Below, piece after piece: positions 4,777-31,978 of a stretch of 63,395 nucleotides of DNA; the first letter of the stretch is position 1; every line of letters begins with the position of its first letter. Made by a program: the position numbers and the translations under genes. Where the stretch lies: the NCBI GenBank assembly GCA_022767075.1, contig JALEPP010000029.1, positions 1 to 63,395 on the forward strand, written 5' to 3'. Below the pieces are notes generated by a model. That model saw nothing but the letters and a program-made list of their open reading frames with translations. It did no database searches and was not told the origin of the DNA. The stretch is from Agathobacter sp. Its GTDB lineage: Bacteria > Bacillota > Clostridia > Lachnospirales > Lachnospiraceae.

Positions 4777-4818
4777 AAAAAGGCGTAGTCTAGAGGATAT
4801 CCAGACTATGCCTTTTTT
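4777..4818. terminator. Bidirectional intrinsic terminator between mecA and the DGC gene
   Basis: AAAAAGGCGTAGTCT...AGACTATGCCTTTTTT hairpin; a smaller CATCC-TGCG-GGATG-CTTTTT hairpin just upstream. Confidence 0.85.
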
Positions 4819-6097
4819 ATGGCTCATGTACTACTAATTGGTTTCGCCCATTTTTCTTCCCTTCATACAGAAGGTCGTCTACTTCAATAATCAAATCATC
4901 CAATGTTGCAGCGTTTTCACAGCTGCAGAGTCCAAAGGTCATCGTTACGGAAAGACCTTCTCCCTCGTAGACTACAATCTTATTTCGAATCTGGTCAATC
5001 AGGTGATTCATAATCTCAGCAGCTTCCTCTAACTGGGTAACAGGCATATATATGAGGAATTCTTCACCACCCCAGCGAATGACATGACAGCCGAATTTTG
5101 CGGTTTCCTGCATCAGCTGTGCCATGCTTTGGAGGACAACATCGCCACAGGCATGACCATGCAAGTCGTTAAAGATCTTAAAGTGATCAATGTCCCCAAG
5201 GGCTACATAGAAGACTCTGTTTTCTTCCTGATAACGCTCAAAGGCCTTTTGCAGATGAGCTTGTCCACTGCGTCTGTTAAATAGCTTTGTCAAAGGATCT
5301 TGCTCTATCAGTTCCCGAAGTGATTTCTGCATCTCGATAATCGAGTATCCCATATCAGAAAACTCGTCTTTTCTTGAAAGGACATCAGGGGAAACCGTAT
5401 TGGACAATTCCCCTTTTGCGGCGCGACAGAGAGAGAGTCGAAGCTTATCTAAGATGGACAGGAAGATGTCTGCGTGACGCTTCGTCCAGATTCCTACAAA
5501 CATCATTACGATGATGGTCAACAATAGGATTGGAAGGATGGCACGAATAACCAGGCGATAAACCAGTTCCTTTGGCATCAGAGCTGCAATCATTCCAATA
5601 CATTTGTTATCGTTGTTGTAAAGGGGGAGATAGTACCCATAGAACATGGTATCTCCTACCTTAAGATTGTCATAAAAGAGATCCTGTTCGTGATTAAGCA
5701 CATCCTCCTTTAGCTGATAGCTGGCTTTGGTTCCTACAATCAGGGTTCCGGTGTGGTCTACTACAGTTGTGAGGACTCTGGTATCCTGGTAAAAAATAGT
5801 AAAGTCAACATTGGTGTTCCTCTTCCAGGAGATAAGGAGATCATTGTCCGTAATCAGGACATCTCCCTTGGAAAGAATCAGGGTGTCATCCTTTTGAATC
5901 ATAGCGTAATCACCCGGATAAAGCGTGTCCATATTGTCAGCAATCATGTGGGCATAGTTTTGTAATTCTCTTTGAATGGACTCTTCCAGAGATGCTCGAA
6001 TAGCAAAAATGCTAAAGATCGTAATAACGACCCCTAGCATTATTAGTGGCATTACTGTCATTCGAAGAAGAGTACGGGAAATTCCATTTTTCTTCAT
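4817..6097 (-). CDS. Membrane-anchored diguanylate cyclase (extracytoplasmic sensor + GGDEF)
   Basis: N-terminal TM, Cache-like region, second TM, then DPLTKLFNRR ... GDIDHFKIFNDLHGHACGD ... RWGGEEF motif. Confidence 0.92.
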   Translation of the reverse strand: MKKNGISRTLLRMTVMPLIMLGVVITIFSIFAIRASLEESIQRELQNYAHMIADNMDTLYPGDYAMIQKDDTLILSKGDVLITDNDLLISWKRNTNVDFTIFYQDTRVLTTVVDHTGTLIVGTKASYQLKEDVLNHEQDLFYDNLKVGDTMFYGYYLPLYNNDNKCIGMIAALMPKELVYRLVIRAILPILLLTIIVMMFVGIWTKRHADIFLSILDKLRLSLCRAAKGELSNTVSPDVLSRKDEFSDMGYSIIEMQKSLRELIEQDPLTKLFNRRSGQAHLQKAFERYQEENRVFYVALGDIDHFKIFNDLHGHACGDVVLQSMAQLMQETAKFGCHVIRWGGEEFLIYMPVTQLEEAAEIMNHLIDQIRNKIVVYEGEGLSVTMTFGLCSCENAATLDDLIIEVDDLLYEGKKNGRNQLVVHEP

Positions 6098-6115
6098 ACG
6101 ACTTAGTTCCTATGA

Positions 6116-6475
6116 TTAACCTAATACTTTATGGATAGACTCTAATACACGGTCCGGCTGGAACGGTTTTACTACGAAGTCCTTAGCTCCTGCCTGAATA
6201 GCATCAATAACCATTGCCTGCTGACCCATTGCAGAACACATAATGCAAGTAGCGTTTGGATCGTTGGCACGGATCTCCTTTAATGCCTGAAGACCATCCT
6301 TGTTAGGCATTGTGATATCTAAAGTTACAAGGTCTGGTTTTAACTCGTTATACTTTGCTACGGCTTCATTTCCATCAGCTGCCTCACCGACTACGTCATA
6401 TCCCCCTTTGGTAAGAATGTCCTTAAGCATCATGCGCATGAATGCTGCGTCATCAACGACTAAAACTGTTGCCAT
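6116..6475 (-). CDS. CheY-like single-domain response regulator
   Basis: VLVVDDAAFMRMMLKDIL ... LVTLDITMPNKDG ... MCSAMGQQ ... FVVKPFQ receiver motifs. Confidence 0.95.
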   Translation of the reverse strand: MATVLVVDDAAFMRMMLKDILTKGGYDVVGEAADGNEAVAKYNELKPDLVTLDITMPNKDGLQALKEIRANDPNATCIMCSAMGQQAMVIDAIQAGAKDFVVKPFQPDRVLESIHKVLG

Positions 6476-6487
6476 ATTTGTTTCCTC

Positions 6488-7057
6488 CTATTTTACTATC
6501 TGTTTTACAATACTAAGTGGGAAGAGCTGCAGGATATTACTGTCTACTAAATCTCCGATGGAAATGCGGAAAGTGACTTTAACAATATCTGTTCCGTTGC
6601 AGAGTTCTTCCGGAATTTCAAAGGTTTTTTGGTACTTGCTGTTAATCAATGGGGTTCCGATATCCGTTGGAGCATTGATTAAAGCGGACATTGAGGTGGC
6701 AATCGTGCCGCACATCTGGTTCATTGCTTCTGAAATAGCAGAAAGAACAATTTCATCAAAGTCTAAACCACCTAGATTTTTGCCATCGCCACCCATCATC
6801 AGGCTGGCAATAACCAGAGCATCGTGCTCCCGCAGAACCAAGAGATTGGTTCCCTCTAGCCCTTTGGTATACGGCACCTTAACCAGGATGCGGTCATCGC
6901 CCGTGAGAGAGCTTTCGTCCTGAAGGACTTCTACCATAGGGGTGGTGATATTGGTTGGTTGGTTCAAAATCAGACTGAGTGCAGTGGCTGCGCTGCCGAT
7001 ACAAATATTGGCAACCTCGCCAATCACATCAGCTTGTTCTTTTGTGATTGATTCCAT
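6488..7057 (-). CDS. CheC/FliY-N-like CheY-P phosphatase domain protein
   Basis: EVANICIGSAATALSLILNQPTNITTP and SAISEAMNQMCGTIATSMSALIN duplicated CheC-type motifs; no FliN domain. Confidence 0.8.
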   Translation of the reverse strand: MESITKEQADVIGEVANICIGSAATALSLILNQPTNITTPMVEVLQDESSLTGDDRILVKVPYTKGLEGTNLLVLREHDALVIASLMMGGDGKNLGGLDFDEIVLSAISEAMNQMCGTIATSMSALINAPTDIGTPLINSKYQKTFEIPEELCNGTDIVKVTFRISIGDLVDSNILQLFPLSIVKQIVK

Positions 7058-7150: not shown

Positions 7151-7179
7151 TTGACATAGGACTTTAGGGAGACTATAAT
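7151..7179 (+). promoter_or_regulatory. Sigma-A promoter TTGACA-17-TATAAT
   Basis: Perfect consensus -35 (7151-7156) and -10 (7174-7179) upstream of the BMP-domain gene. Confidence 0.85.
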
Positions 7180-7218
7180 GATTCCATAAGTAATTGCTTG
7201 TAAAAAGGAGCATAGAAT

Positions 7219-9129
7219 ATGGGACTTAACGAATTTCAAGAAGCCCAGAAGATGGGAAAAAAAGAGTATAAGACAGCACTTGCAACAGGAAGCTTTCCTT
7301 ATTTGCCTGTTCTCGACCAGATTCTGGAGAACGCTGATATTGTAACCGAGCAGTATCTGGGGTTGGTACAGGTGCCACTTGACAAAGTGGTAGGGACAAG
7401 TACCATGGGACGAACCCAGGCTTTTGCACGCAATTTCATGCCTTTATTGGATGAGAAAACGGAATTTGGACTGAAGTGGATTAATCTCAGTGAGGCCCAG
7501 GTGTCAGAGGGGATTCGAGACCCGATTATCGCATATGAGTATATGAATCGATATTATGTGGTAGAAGGGAATAAGAGAGTCAGTGTACTGAAATATTACG
7601 ATGCCTTTTCGATTCCGGCTGTTGTAACCAGAAAGGTTCCAAGGAAAACCGATGATGAGGCAATTTTAAGATACTACGATTTTATGAAGTTCAGCGATAT
7701 TACAGGGCTCTTTACGGTGGAGTTTGCCCGTGAGGGAAGCTGTGATTTATTGCTGGAGCTTACCGGGAAGACGGAAAAATGGAATGAGGTAGATAGAGAG
7801 CTGTTTAATAAGGTTCTGTTCCACTTTAACAGAGCTTACAAATTCCAGGGAGGTGAGAACCTGCCTATCAAAATCGGAGACGCTTTGGCCTGCTTCCTGA
7901 ATATTTATGGCTATTGTGAAGCTTTGGATATGACGGATTCTCAATATAGCCAGAACCTGGTGAAAATCTGGAGTGAAATGGTAATGATGACCCAGAAGCA
8001 AAAGGTTGGATTGGTTTTAGATCCAAAAGAGGCTGCACCGGTAGAAAAGAAGAGTCTCTGGAGCTATCTGATGCCATCCACAGCAAAGAAGCTGAAGGTT
8101 GCCTTCCTGTACAGCAAAGACCCGGAAGCGTCCGACTGGATTTATGGACACGAGCTTGGCCGCAGTTATCTGGAGGAGACCTTCCCGGAGCAGGTTACAA
8201 CGATGGCGATTAGCAATGTGAATGAACAGAATCTGGATGAGACATTGGAAAAGCTCATTGCACAGGGAGTGGATATTATCTTTGGAACCTCACCGCAGAT
8301 GATGAAGCCAAGCCTAAAGGCGGCAATTGCCCACCCGGAAGTGAAGATTTTGAACTGTTCTGTAAACACTCCGCATAAATACATTCGAACCTACTATGCA
8401 AGAATGTATGAAGCAAAATTTATTTCAGGTATTATCGCAGGTGCAATGGCGGAAAACGATAAAATTGGATATATCGCAGATTATCCGATTTATGGAATGA
8501 CTGCAAATATCAATGCCTTTGCTCTTGGGGCTCTTTGCGTAAATCCTAGATCAAAGATTTACCTGGAGTGGTCTACAAGAAAAGGGTATGATTTGGATGA
8601 ATTTCTTAATAAAAACGATATTCATTATGTATCAAATCAGGATTACATTACGCCAGGCAGTGCTTCCAGAGAGTTTGGTCTCTACAAAAGAGAGAATGGC
8701 GAAGCCTTGAATCTGGCAATGCCACTTTGGAACTGGGGTATTTTCTATGAGAAATTAATCCAGAGTATTCTGGCTGGCAGATATCAGAGTGAAGAGGTGA
8801 CGGCAAAAGCCATGAACTACTGGTGGGGAATGTCTGCGGGAGTGATTGACATCATTACCTCCAACAAGAATGTGCCTTATGGGGTGCGTCGAATTGTAGA
8901 CTACATGAGGCAGCAGGTGTCTAATGGAAGCGTGGAGCCTTTCTGGGGAGAAATCAGAGATCAGGAAGGGAAACTGCGCAATAAGGATAACGAAAGTATG
9001 AAACCGGAGGATATTATGGAAATGGATTGGCTTTTGGAAAATGTAATTGGAACCATTCCGTCCATTGAAGAGCTGGTGGATGATGCCCATGCGGTAGTAG
9101 CATTGAAGGGTGTAGAGGAAAATAACTAA
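7219..9129 (+). CDS. BMP/Med-like substrate-binding domain protein with N-terminal ParB-like domain, no signal peptide
   Basis: PIIAYEYMNRYYVVEGNKRVSVLKYYDAFSIPAVV ParB-like motif; LKVAFLYSKDPEASDWIYGHELGR ... DIIFGTSPQMM ... GIIAGAMAENDKIGYIADYPIYG BMP-family motifs; no hydrophobic N-terminus or lipobox. Confidence 0.78.
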   Translation: MGLNEFQEAQKMGKKEYKTALATGSFPYLPVLDQILENADIVTEQYLGLVQVPLDKVVGTSTMGRTQAFARNFMPLLDEKTEFGLKWINLSEAQVSEGIRDPIIAYEYMNRYYVVEGNKRVSVLKYYDAFSIPAVVTRKVPRKTDDEAILRYYDFMKFSDITGLFTVEFAREGSCDLLLELTGKTEKWNEVDRELFNKVLFHFNRAYKFQGGENLPIKIGDALACFLNIYGYCEALDMTDSQYSQNLVKIWSEMVMMTQKQKVGLVLDPKEAAPVEKKSLWSYLMPSTAKKLKVAFLYSKDPEASDWIYGHELGRSYLEETFPEQVTTMAISNVNEQNLDETLEKLIAQGVDIIFGTSPQMMKPSLKAAIAHPEVKILNCSVNTPHKYIRTYYARMYEAKFISGIIAGAMAENDKIGYIADYPIYGMTANINAFALGALCVNPRSKIYLEWSTRKGYDLDEFLNKNDIHYVSNQDYITPGSASREFGLYKRENGEALNLAMPLWNWGIFYEKLIQSILAGRYQSEEVTAKAMNYWWGMSAGVIDIITSNKNVPYGVRRIVDYMRQQVSNGSVEPFWGEIRDQEGKLRNKDNESMKPEDIMEMDWLLENVIGTIPSIEELVDDAHAVVALKGVEENN

Positions 9130-9720
9130 ATGAGAATTTTGTGTCTGGCAGATGAAGAGTCTAACGTAATCTGGGATACCTATACAAAAGATGATTTCAA
9201 GGATATTGATTTGATCATATCCTGTGGTGATTTGAAGGCATCTTATCTATCCTACATTGAGACCATTTCATCAATACCAATTTTATACGTCCACGGGAAT
9301 CATGATGACCGATATGCCACAGAGCCACCGGAGGGTTGCTTTTGCATTGAGGATCAGATTTATGTGTATCAGGGCGTGCGTTTTCTGGGGCTTGGGGGTT
9401 CACAGAGATACAAGCCAGGAATTAACCAATATACAGAACGTGAGATGAGGGCCCGTGTGAATCGCATGGCGTTAAAGCTTTTATATCACAAGGGCTTCGA
9501 TGTACTTGTGACACACGCTCCGGCACTGGGCCTAAACGACGGAACGGATGCCTGTCATAGAGGGTTTGAGATATTTACCAGATTAATTGATAAATATCAC
9601 CCAAAATACTTTATTCATGGACATGTGCATTTGACCTACAGCAGACAGTTTGCAAGAGAAGACAGTCTTGGCGATACCAAGGTTATCAATGCATTTGAGA
9701 AGTATATTATTGAGATTTAG
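9130..9720 (+). CDS. Calcineurin-like metallophosphoesterase
   Basis: CGDLKASYLSYIE, YVHGNHDDR, LVTHAPALG, FIHGHVHL metal-binding motifs. Confidence 0.88.
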   Translation: MRILCLADEESNVIWDTYTKDDFKDIDLIISCGDLKASYLSYIETISSIPILYVHGNHDDRYATEPPEGCFCIEDQIYVYQGVRFLGLGGSQRYKPGINQYTEREMRARVNRMALKLLYHKGFDVLVTHAPALGLNDGTDACHRGFEIFTRLIDKYHPKYFIHGHVHLTYSRQFAREDSLGDTKVINAFEKYIIEI

Positions 9721-9820: not shown

Positions 9821-9892
9821 GCTGATGTGGCTCAGAGGTAGAGCACTTCCTTGGTAAGGAAGGGGTCACGGGTTCAATTCCCGTCATCAGCT
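9821..9892 (+). tRNA. tRNA-Thr (anticodon GGT)
   Basis: Acceptor GCTGATG/CATCAGC, anticodon stem CTTCC-TTGGTAA-GGAAG, T-loop GGTTCAATTCC; CCA not encoded. Confidence 0.95.
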
Positions 9893-9982: not shown

Positions 9983-10810
9983 ATGATGAGAGTAAAAATT
10001 GCGCGTTTTAAGGATGGACCAATGATACGAAAGGAATGGGGTATCACGGGTCCTTTTTTTGTTGATTCCAAAGAGATTTCATGCTGTAAACTCATAAGTC
10101 ATCCGGAATGCGTGGAGCTTAGGCTGTGGATTCCCCCTCATGAAGGAGCTGTTTCAAAGTGTATCCGTATTGTGGGATATCTAAAGGAGGATATGGCTTT
10201 GTTCCTGACGGACGATGAGAATGGGAAGCTTCTTTTGGAAAAGATTATGAGTCCATTGGAAGAAGAAAAAAACATGATGGATATTTTAGGGTTGCTGTTT
10301 CAGGAATTGCTGTCTAAGGAACGGGAGCTGCTGGAAAGGAAGGAGAGCAGTTTATCGGAACGGGAGCTGCTTTTACTGGAGGGCAGAACCTATGAGTTCT
10401 GGAAATGGGATATGGAGGTGCGAAGAGAAATTCTTGATCTAAGAGAGTATTATCAGGAATTGGCAGATGTGATTGGTGAGATGCAATCCATAACGGAGAG
10501 CAGGGATTCTTTGGAGGGATATCGTATAAAATGTGAAAAACTGGAACGAAGAACCGATAATCTGTTAAATCAGATGGAGTTGATTCGTGAAACCTATCGT
10601 GCCATTGTTGTAGAGAGGCAAAATAAGAATATGAACACCCTGACCGTTGCTTCTATGTTCTTTTTACCTTTAAATGTGATTACAGGATGGTTTGGAATGA
10701 ATTTTCATAATATGCCGGAATTAGAACACGGCTACCCTTATGTGGCAGCCGTGTGTGTATTACTGATTCTGTTGATATTCTGGTTCTTTAAGAAAAACAG
10801 ATTCCTATGA
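9983..10810 (+). CDS. CorA-like Mg2+/divalent cation transporter
   Basis: C-terminal GWFGMNFHNMPEL (GMN motif) followed by a second TM; start codon uncertain (10022 is an alternative). Confidence 0.85.
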   Translation: MMRVKIARFKDGPMIRKEWGITGPFFVDSKEISCCKLISHPECVELRLWIPPHEGAVSKCIRIVGYLKEDMALFLTDDENGKLLLEKIMSPLEEEKNMMDILGLLFQELLSKERELLERKESSLSERELLLLEGRTYEFWKWDMEVRREILDLREYYQELADVIGEMQSITESRDSLEGYRIKCEKLERRTDNLLNQMELIRETYRAIVVERQNKNMNTLTVASMFFLPLNVITGWFGMNFHNMPELEHGYPYVAAVCVLLILLIFWFFKKNRFL

Positions 10811-31870: not shown

Positions 31871-31978
31871 AACAGGTTATATGACTGACGGAAGTGGAAT
31901 TGACCACAGGGAGTATAGCCGTGTGAAGCCGACCGTCTGGGCAAAGATAGCCTAGGACTGTGTTGGCTTATTTTTTTG
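31871..31978 (+). ncRNA. ZTP/ZMP (pfl) riboswitch with overlapping intrinsic terminator
   Basis: GACTGACGG...GTGGAATTGACCACAGGGAGTAT...GCCGACCGTCTGGGCA matches the recalled pfl-motif core (CCGnCCGCCUGGGC); AAGCCGAC pairs with GTTGGCTT followed by TTTTTTT; upstream of purine genes. Confidence 0.88.

Follow-up and report, generated by a model that had tools for sequence, protein, structure and literature searches.

What might an intracellular protein do that joins a ParB-like N-terminal region to a BMP domain and is encoded immediately upstream of a metallophosphoesterase? The question is raised by a locus in Agathobacter sp. (assembly GCA_022767075.1, 83.7% complete), on a 63,395 nt stretch of contig JALEPP010000029.1, the whole of which is referred to here as the window. 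A first-pass annotation of this DNA had proposed an intracellular nucleoside or nucleotide sensor coupled to a phosphoesterase as a signaling module. We call the two proteins FUS and MPE.

Results

The FUS ORF (7219-9129, + strand; 636 aa, ATG start) is followed by the MPE ORF (9130-9720, + strand; 196 aa, ATG start) with 0 nt between them, the MPE start codon directly abutting the FUS stop codon. The ORFs and the Pfam matches described below bear out the claim that a metallophosphoesterase begins directly after FUS. Ribosome-binding sites were read directly from the sequence for both genes: AGGAG for FUS (7206..7210, +) and AGAGGA, within the 3′ end of FUS, for MPE (9114..9119, +). The perfect promoter claimed upstream of the pair is also there, as a predicted sigma-70-type element (7151..7179, +) composed of TTGACA (7151-7156), a 17 nt spacer, and TATAAT (7174-7179), matching the consensus at 12 of 12 positions. 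A loose pattern search did not detect a promoter at the equivalent site in most relatives, and we therefore regard it as a property of this locus. The best named match outside the window's own genome is from Roseburia porci, at 70% identity.

Divergent from the pair lie genes for CheC-like, CheY-like, and GGDEF-domain proteins (window 4817-7057, − strand); this CheC/CheY/diguanylate-cyclase-like cluster beside the pair is conserved in the Agathobacter/Roseburia group. Downstream of MPE is a tRNA gene (9821-9892), and 3′ of the tRNA gene a short CorA-like protein of 275 aa is encoded (9983-10810). An Rfam search placed a ZMP/ZTP riboswitch at 31871-31949 (RF01750, 57 bits) and found no riboswitch near the FUS/MPE pair.

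MPE matches the Pfam families Metallophos (E = 5.9e-8) and Metallophos_2 (E = 1.3e-8); its matches to YfcE fall below the cut-off, and MPPED2 is matched by profile. Motif alignment showed that the metal residues D8, D34, N57, H58, H129, H165, and H167 are kept, and the GD, GNHD, H129, and GHxH metal motifs are invariant across 99 FUS-type and 12 other MPEs. The first motif of the FUS-type proteins is not DxH, reading DxE in 93/99 and DxP in 6/99; across MPEs, the alternatives to Glu as its third residue are Pro, Val, Ile, and Arg. MPE (9130..9720, +) is a calcineurin-type metallophosphoesterase of a separate, paired subfamily.

We found the two genes to be closely associated. In a first survey, MPE orthologs adjoined FUS at nearly all loci. 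A family survey of 250 Lachnospiraceae genomes, one per genus, returned both genes in 96, FUS alone in 0, a partial MPE alone in 1, and neither in 153. FUS (96/250) and MPE (97/250) were present in identical genomes but for one, a co-occurrence with a Fisher value of 9e-70 from counts that treat genomes as independent despite their kinship. The genes are adjacent and codirectional in 85 of the 96 genomes with both and truly unlinked, yet both retained, in G013, G044, G109, and G238; in other Clostridia, they are neighbors but convergent. At the class level (291 genomes), both genes were found in 26/291, that is, in 26 of the 31 genomes with either gene; the N-terminal module of FUS occurred by itself in two (in the first the hit lies at the end of a contig, and in the second it is weak and falls in another protein, of 375 aa) and MPE by itself in three. 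Seven further genomes had MPE absent from the FUS contig or distant on it, and in five of them MPE was located elsewhere in the assembly. The pairing of FUS and MPE is beyond chance, the co-conservation that the proposed module presupposed holds, and adjacency has been retained through one change of relative orientation.

At 13 loci of the convergent clade (including L073, L085, L088, L092, L093, and L098), a gene for a DUF402 protein lies directly upstream of FUS on the same strand; the DUF402 family is said to include nucleoside tri- and diphosphatases. At one locus (L127, genome G460), the usual flanking genes and MPE are present and FUS is cleanly absent between DUF402 and MPE. The public record of Collinsella shows FUS overlapping MPE by 4 nt. 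Full-length matches in the plasmid collection came from two records, one of 56 kb and one of 900 kb with ribosomal-protein genes on it; the phage collection gave one, in a faecal contig lacking annotation. On these matches, a mobile-element origin of the pair was rejected; the pair is not enriched on plasmids or phages. The same distribution bears on whether this is an anti-phage defense pair, with MPE as effector and FUS as sensor. The layout is suited to such a role, and MPE matches the PADLOC candidate PDC-S10 (E = 3.1e-16). That match, however, is at the level of a shared superfamily, neither FUS nor its Fe-S relative (below) matches any PADLOC model, and in the Agathobacter/Roseburia group, the pair occupies a constant housekeeping neighborhood, which together make a defense function very improbable.

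Pfam and NCBIfam were insufficient to establish a ParB domain in FUS. Pfam ParB_N matched the window protein below threshold (E = 0.1, aa 90-138), and a sequence search of the N-terminal module against the PDB returned nothing beyond a chance-level sulfiredoxin match. The fold was settled through structure prediction. An AlphaFold2 model of full-length FUS, from an alignment of 60 orthologs, had a pLDDT of 92; since its Foldseek results were dominated by BMP entries, aa 1-276 were folded separately (AlphaFold2, pLDDT 93.8). The listed PDB matches of this segment were essentially all of the ParB, Noc, KorB, PadC, Srx, SbnI, and SerK types, headed by Noc (7ol9, 6.6e-5) and KorB and including PadC (6ryk) and ParB. 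Superposition was good for a core of ~90 residues alone, and longer ParB alignments had large rmsd. By Foldseek, the rmsd to SbnI (6nr6) was 2.6 across 91 columns, and the target-normalized TM-score to plant sulfiredoxin (6ky4) was 0.64. The first-pass annotation had staked its ParB-like N terminus in advance on a ParB or sulfiredoxin fold, which the modeled domain (aa 41-141; 7339..7641, +) does adopt; the predicted structure confirms that the N-terminal module belongs to the ParB/Srx/SerK fold.

When the module was aligned by profile (hhalign) with ParB sequences from relatives (E = 0.0024), Arg65 (7411..7413, +), invariant among 60 orthologs, fell on the Arg of QPR, the C motif of ParB (Box I), and EGNKR, aa 116-120 (7564..7578, +), on the P motif GxxR (Box II), with G117-N-K-R120 aligned to ParB GERR. 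Residues E116, G117, K119, R120, S122, and V123 are likewise invariant in the alignment of 60 orthologs, and N118 is almost so. Conservation peaks at aa 46-140, where mean top-residue frequency is 0.68, compared with 0.47-0.56 for the middle domain and for BMP; no part of FUS is better conserved than the ParB-like stretch. Box III (ENxQR), the hydrolytic Gln of QPR, and the hydrolytic Glu of GERR are absent from FUS by hhalign, and Pfam detects no HTH. Of the CTP binding or hydrolysis attributed to ParB-like domains at the outset, hydrolysis is not expected of FUS, which lacks both of these hydrolytic residues, and binding is a prediction. A published survey of the fold (PMC12704722) gives the P-motif Arg as required for NTP binding in this fold and nucleotide specificity as not predictable from sequence; for the latter reason, we propose no nucleotide for FUS.

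Could FUS instead be a nucleotide clamp, or a DNA- or RNA-associated regulator like ParB, Noc, or KorB, in which BMP serves as an inducer-binding domain in the LacI-family manner? Noc and KorB are the top Foldseek matches of its N-terminal module, and a cytosolic periplasmic-binding-protein fold behind such a module recalls LacI-family regulators. We nevertheless consider this distinctly improbable: Box III is missing, good superposition of the ~90-residue core alone leaves a ParB-type HTH unsupported, and the strict pairing with MPE would go unexplained. A canonical CTPase clamp role was rejected outright, FUS having neither Box III nor the hydrolytic residues.

The helical middle domain (aa 142-285; 7642..8073, +) is homologous to the DUF4032-like region of stand-alone ParB-like proteins. 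The profile comparison A4 versus A5 spans aa 24-230 (202 columns, E = 3.8e-18), and DUF4032 scores over its cut-off in L170 and L174. N-terminal hydropathy and a lipobox scan revealed no signal peptide or membrane anchor in 106 FUS orthologs, one of which, whose start is doubtful, contains a lipobox-like string by chance. Within the N-terminal 60 aa, the hydropathy of 19-residue segments peaks at 0.77 in the window protein and at no more than 1.67 among the 106 orthologs, against 3.01 by the same measure for an exported BMP paralog of the same genome. Because none of these proteins has an N-terminal hydrophobic segment close to that of the exported paralog, FUS is taken to be cytosolic, in line with the original claim of an intracellular protein lacking a signal peptide or lipobox. 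These data also bear on the PGAP name, under which FUS would be an ordinary ABC-transporter substrate-binding protein. The BMP domain has clear homology to such proteins, and RefSeq names the Collinsella ortholog 'BMP family ABC transporter substrate-binding protein'. That identity is scarcely credible for orthologs that lack an export signal or anchor, carry a conserved N-terminal extension of 285 aa, are paired with a phosphoesterase, and have neither a permease nor an ATPase among their conserved gene neighbors, and a transporter role was rejected on the lack of an export signal and permease genes.

The BMP fold assigned to the C-terminal half was confirmed by Pfam (PF02608, E = 2.6e-16, aa 293-452; 59.9 bits versus a cut-off of 24.1), which exceeds its cut-off in 60/60 FUS members, and by Foldseek and phmmer. 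AtzT (6pi5) is the nearest match to this half (Foldseek 3.3e-24; phmmer 1.8e-37, aa 290-614), and with pocket mapping, these searches define a BMP domain of AtzT type at aa 290-614 (8086..9060, +). The nucleoside binding expected of it has to be amended: the fold stands, but the domain falls in the AtzT purine-nucleobase branch instead of the nucleoside (PnrA) branch. AtzT binds guanine with a KD of 0.11 μM through Tyr45, Ser97, the backbone N of Phe98, Glu165, Trp194, Asn218, and Asn220 (PMC6834077).

At AtzT positions 45, 97, 98, 165, 194, 218, and 220, the window protein has Trp (W307), Ser (S358), Pro (P359), Gly (G426), Lys (K455), Asn, and Asp (D475); the paralog used in the comparison of pocket residues was L002. 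Position 45 is Trp in 106/106 FUS proteins, position 97 mostly Ser or Thr, and position 98 mostly Pro. Orthologs with a convergent MPE mostly retain Glu/Asp165, Trp194, His/Asn218, and Asn/Asp220, whereas those with a codirectional MPE, including the window protein, have Gly165, usually Lys194, and Asp220. Window FUS lacks the full set of AtzT purine contacts, and Glu/Asp165 together with Trp194 is confined to the convergent clade. A tree of 44 representatives contains one orientation change and two changes of position-165 class. From these residues, the ancestral FUS BMP domain was probably purine-binding. Nucleoside or purine sensing by window FUS cannot be assumed, because Glu165 is replaced by Gly, Trp194 by Lys, and Phe98 by Pro.

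Searching 399 genomes of the phylum with the N-terminal module recovered, in other Bacillota classes, proteins of ~310-340 aa that have FUS-like ParB and middle domains and a cysteine-rich, ferredoxin-like C terminus and no BMP domain. Each of these Fe-S-type proteins directly adjoins an MPE that the A2 model places in the same family (E from 1e-59 to 1e-76). Fer4 is matched in L170 (E = 2.5e-13), and L165-L168 have fewer cysteines. Loci L165-L175 and L188 carry this Fe-S variant of the module, ferredoxin-like C termini beside MPE, without annotation; a nagA-like gene lies near the pair in L173/L174. In L178 and L189, a ParB-like protein of ~200 aa overlaps MPE. The Tsukamurella locus (L180) has sugar ABC transporter genes, MPE, and then a 288 aa 'ParB' protein with an 11 nt overlap; that of Cetobacterium (L181) has glycogen phosphorylase, MPE, and a 562 aa ParB-like protein with ~370 additional residues that match no Pfam family. 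In several genomes, MPE has no recognizable ParB-like neighbor. An adenine-deaminase-like gene lies directly beside MPE in L187 and L190, with no recognizable ParB-like gene near. In L176 and L177, a stand-alone ParB-like protein of 125 aa is encoded between helicase and glpK-like genes, and the MPE of that genome is unlinked (L193).

The ParB-like/MPE pair thus extends over Bacillota, Actinomycetota, and Fusobacteriota, three phyla at the least. Because other classes and phyla pair the ParB-like domain and MPE without BMP, these two, and not ParB plus BMP, are the constant core, with BMP as one exchangeable C terminus. The first-pass annotation had treated the ParB-BMP sensor as a unit with the phosphoesterase; the pairing stands, and BMP as a constant part does not.

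The stand-alone relatives introduce the main rival to our preferred reading, a nucleotide switch that acts with MPE. They carry DGNHR or DGHHR, with an acid preceding the Gly, where FUS has Glu116, and they match the NCBIfam model of SerK, a free-serine kinase of ParB fold (PMC5120207), with E = 6.5e-4 and 8.7e-4; SbnI and SerK structures also superpose on the 90-residue core. The ParB-like domain might thus be an ADP- or ATP-dependent small-molecule kinase like SerK or SbnI, with MPE removing the phosphate or processing the product and BMP or Fe-S domains regulating. The SerK matches, at 18.5-18.9 bits, are nevertheless far under the curated cut-off of 380 and about as strong as those to ParB/Noc, and genes of serine metabolism are absent nearby. 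We regard a kinase/phosphatase pair as rather unlikely, and it ranks above the other alternatives.

Discussion

The explanation that we favor, at somewhat less than an even chance, is a two-protein intracellular regulatory module in which a ligand-gated nucleotide switch controls, or acts in series with, a dedicated phosphoesterase. Nucleotide binding is predicted for the ParB/Srx-fold domain of FUS, which contains R65 and the EGNKR motif. BMP would be a Venus-flytrap domain detached from ABC transport that senses a cytosolic small molecule, ancestrally a purine-like one. Ligand and nucleotide state would jointly control, or feed into, MPE, which is predicted to hydrolyze a phosphate ester. 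Nucleotide binding, ligand sensing, and a direct functional coupling of FUS to MPE are what we infer. The core can be seen as one with exchangeable sensors because the ParB-like/MPE pair carries BMP, Fe-S, another C terminus, or none. Hints of a purine-related function come from the AtzT-like pocket, the DUF402 gene upstream at 13 loci, and the adenine deaminase beside MPE in two genomes. Counted against a switch are the sugar-metabolism neighborhoods of Tsukamurella, Cetobacterium, and L173/L174, the loss of the AtzT Glu165 and Trp194 equivalents in the window clade, and MPEs without a ParB-like neighbor. Of the signaling module originally proposed, the intracellular location and the pairing are retained, and nucleoside sensing can no longer be assumed, given the AtzT branch and the lost pocket residues. 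It is possible but doubtful that these proteins form a hitherto undescribed intracellular signaling family in which a ParB-fold nucleotide switch with exchangeable sensors gates MPE, the enzyme acting on a second messenger or metabolite of nucleotide type.

Roughly 39% of the Lachnospiraceae genera sampled carry the pair, as do many other Clostridia, and its hosts are often gut bacteria. Despite this spread, RefSeq gives the Collinsella ortholog the name of an ABC-transporter binding protein, and the Pfam ParB model stays under its cut-off in window FUS. With this module, the ParB nucleotide-fold family gains a new partner enzyme as well as sensor domains, BMP and Fe-S, about which the main text of the published survey is silent. 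The module also offers a compact, testable system that combines a single predicted switch and a single predicted enzyme with natural sensor variants and two natural pocket chemistries.

We found no description of a ParB module with metallophosphoesterase, BMP, DUF402, or DUF4032 in the open-access literature, and the main text of a PF02195-based survey of ParB domain fusions has no BMP or phosphoesterase (PMC12704722); the FUS/MPE module looks to be undescribed. FUS shares with ParB, Noc, PadC, and KorB the fold, the C-motif Arg, and the GxxR P-motif positions. It differs from ParB proteins in scoring below the PF02195 cut-off, in having no Box III, hydrolytic Gln or Glu, ParA, or HTH, and in the long segment inserted after the C-motif Arg, ahead of the next helix. 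The fold core is also common to SerK and SbnI (6nr6), and a DGxHR-like motif is found in the stand-alone relatives, whereas FUS has no significant match to the NCBIfam SerK model. Med and PnrA share the BMP fold with FUS (Foldseek 2hqb, 2fqw), but at no more than 14-16% identity, and they are single-domain proteins without a ParB-like part. The purine-binding BMP proteins AtzT and 3s99 are alignable over the whole BMP domain at 27% identity (PMC6834077), and FUS resembles them in an aromatic residue, Trp, at the ring-stacking position 45. Unlike AtzT, FUS is taken as cytosolic and has Pro for F98, and the window clade has Gly for E165 and Lys for W194. MPE, for its part, shares its metal motifs with calcineurin-type metallophosphoesterases (Metallophos, Metallophos_2, YfcE), with DxE replacing their DxH.
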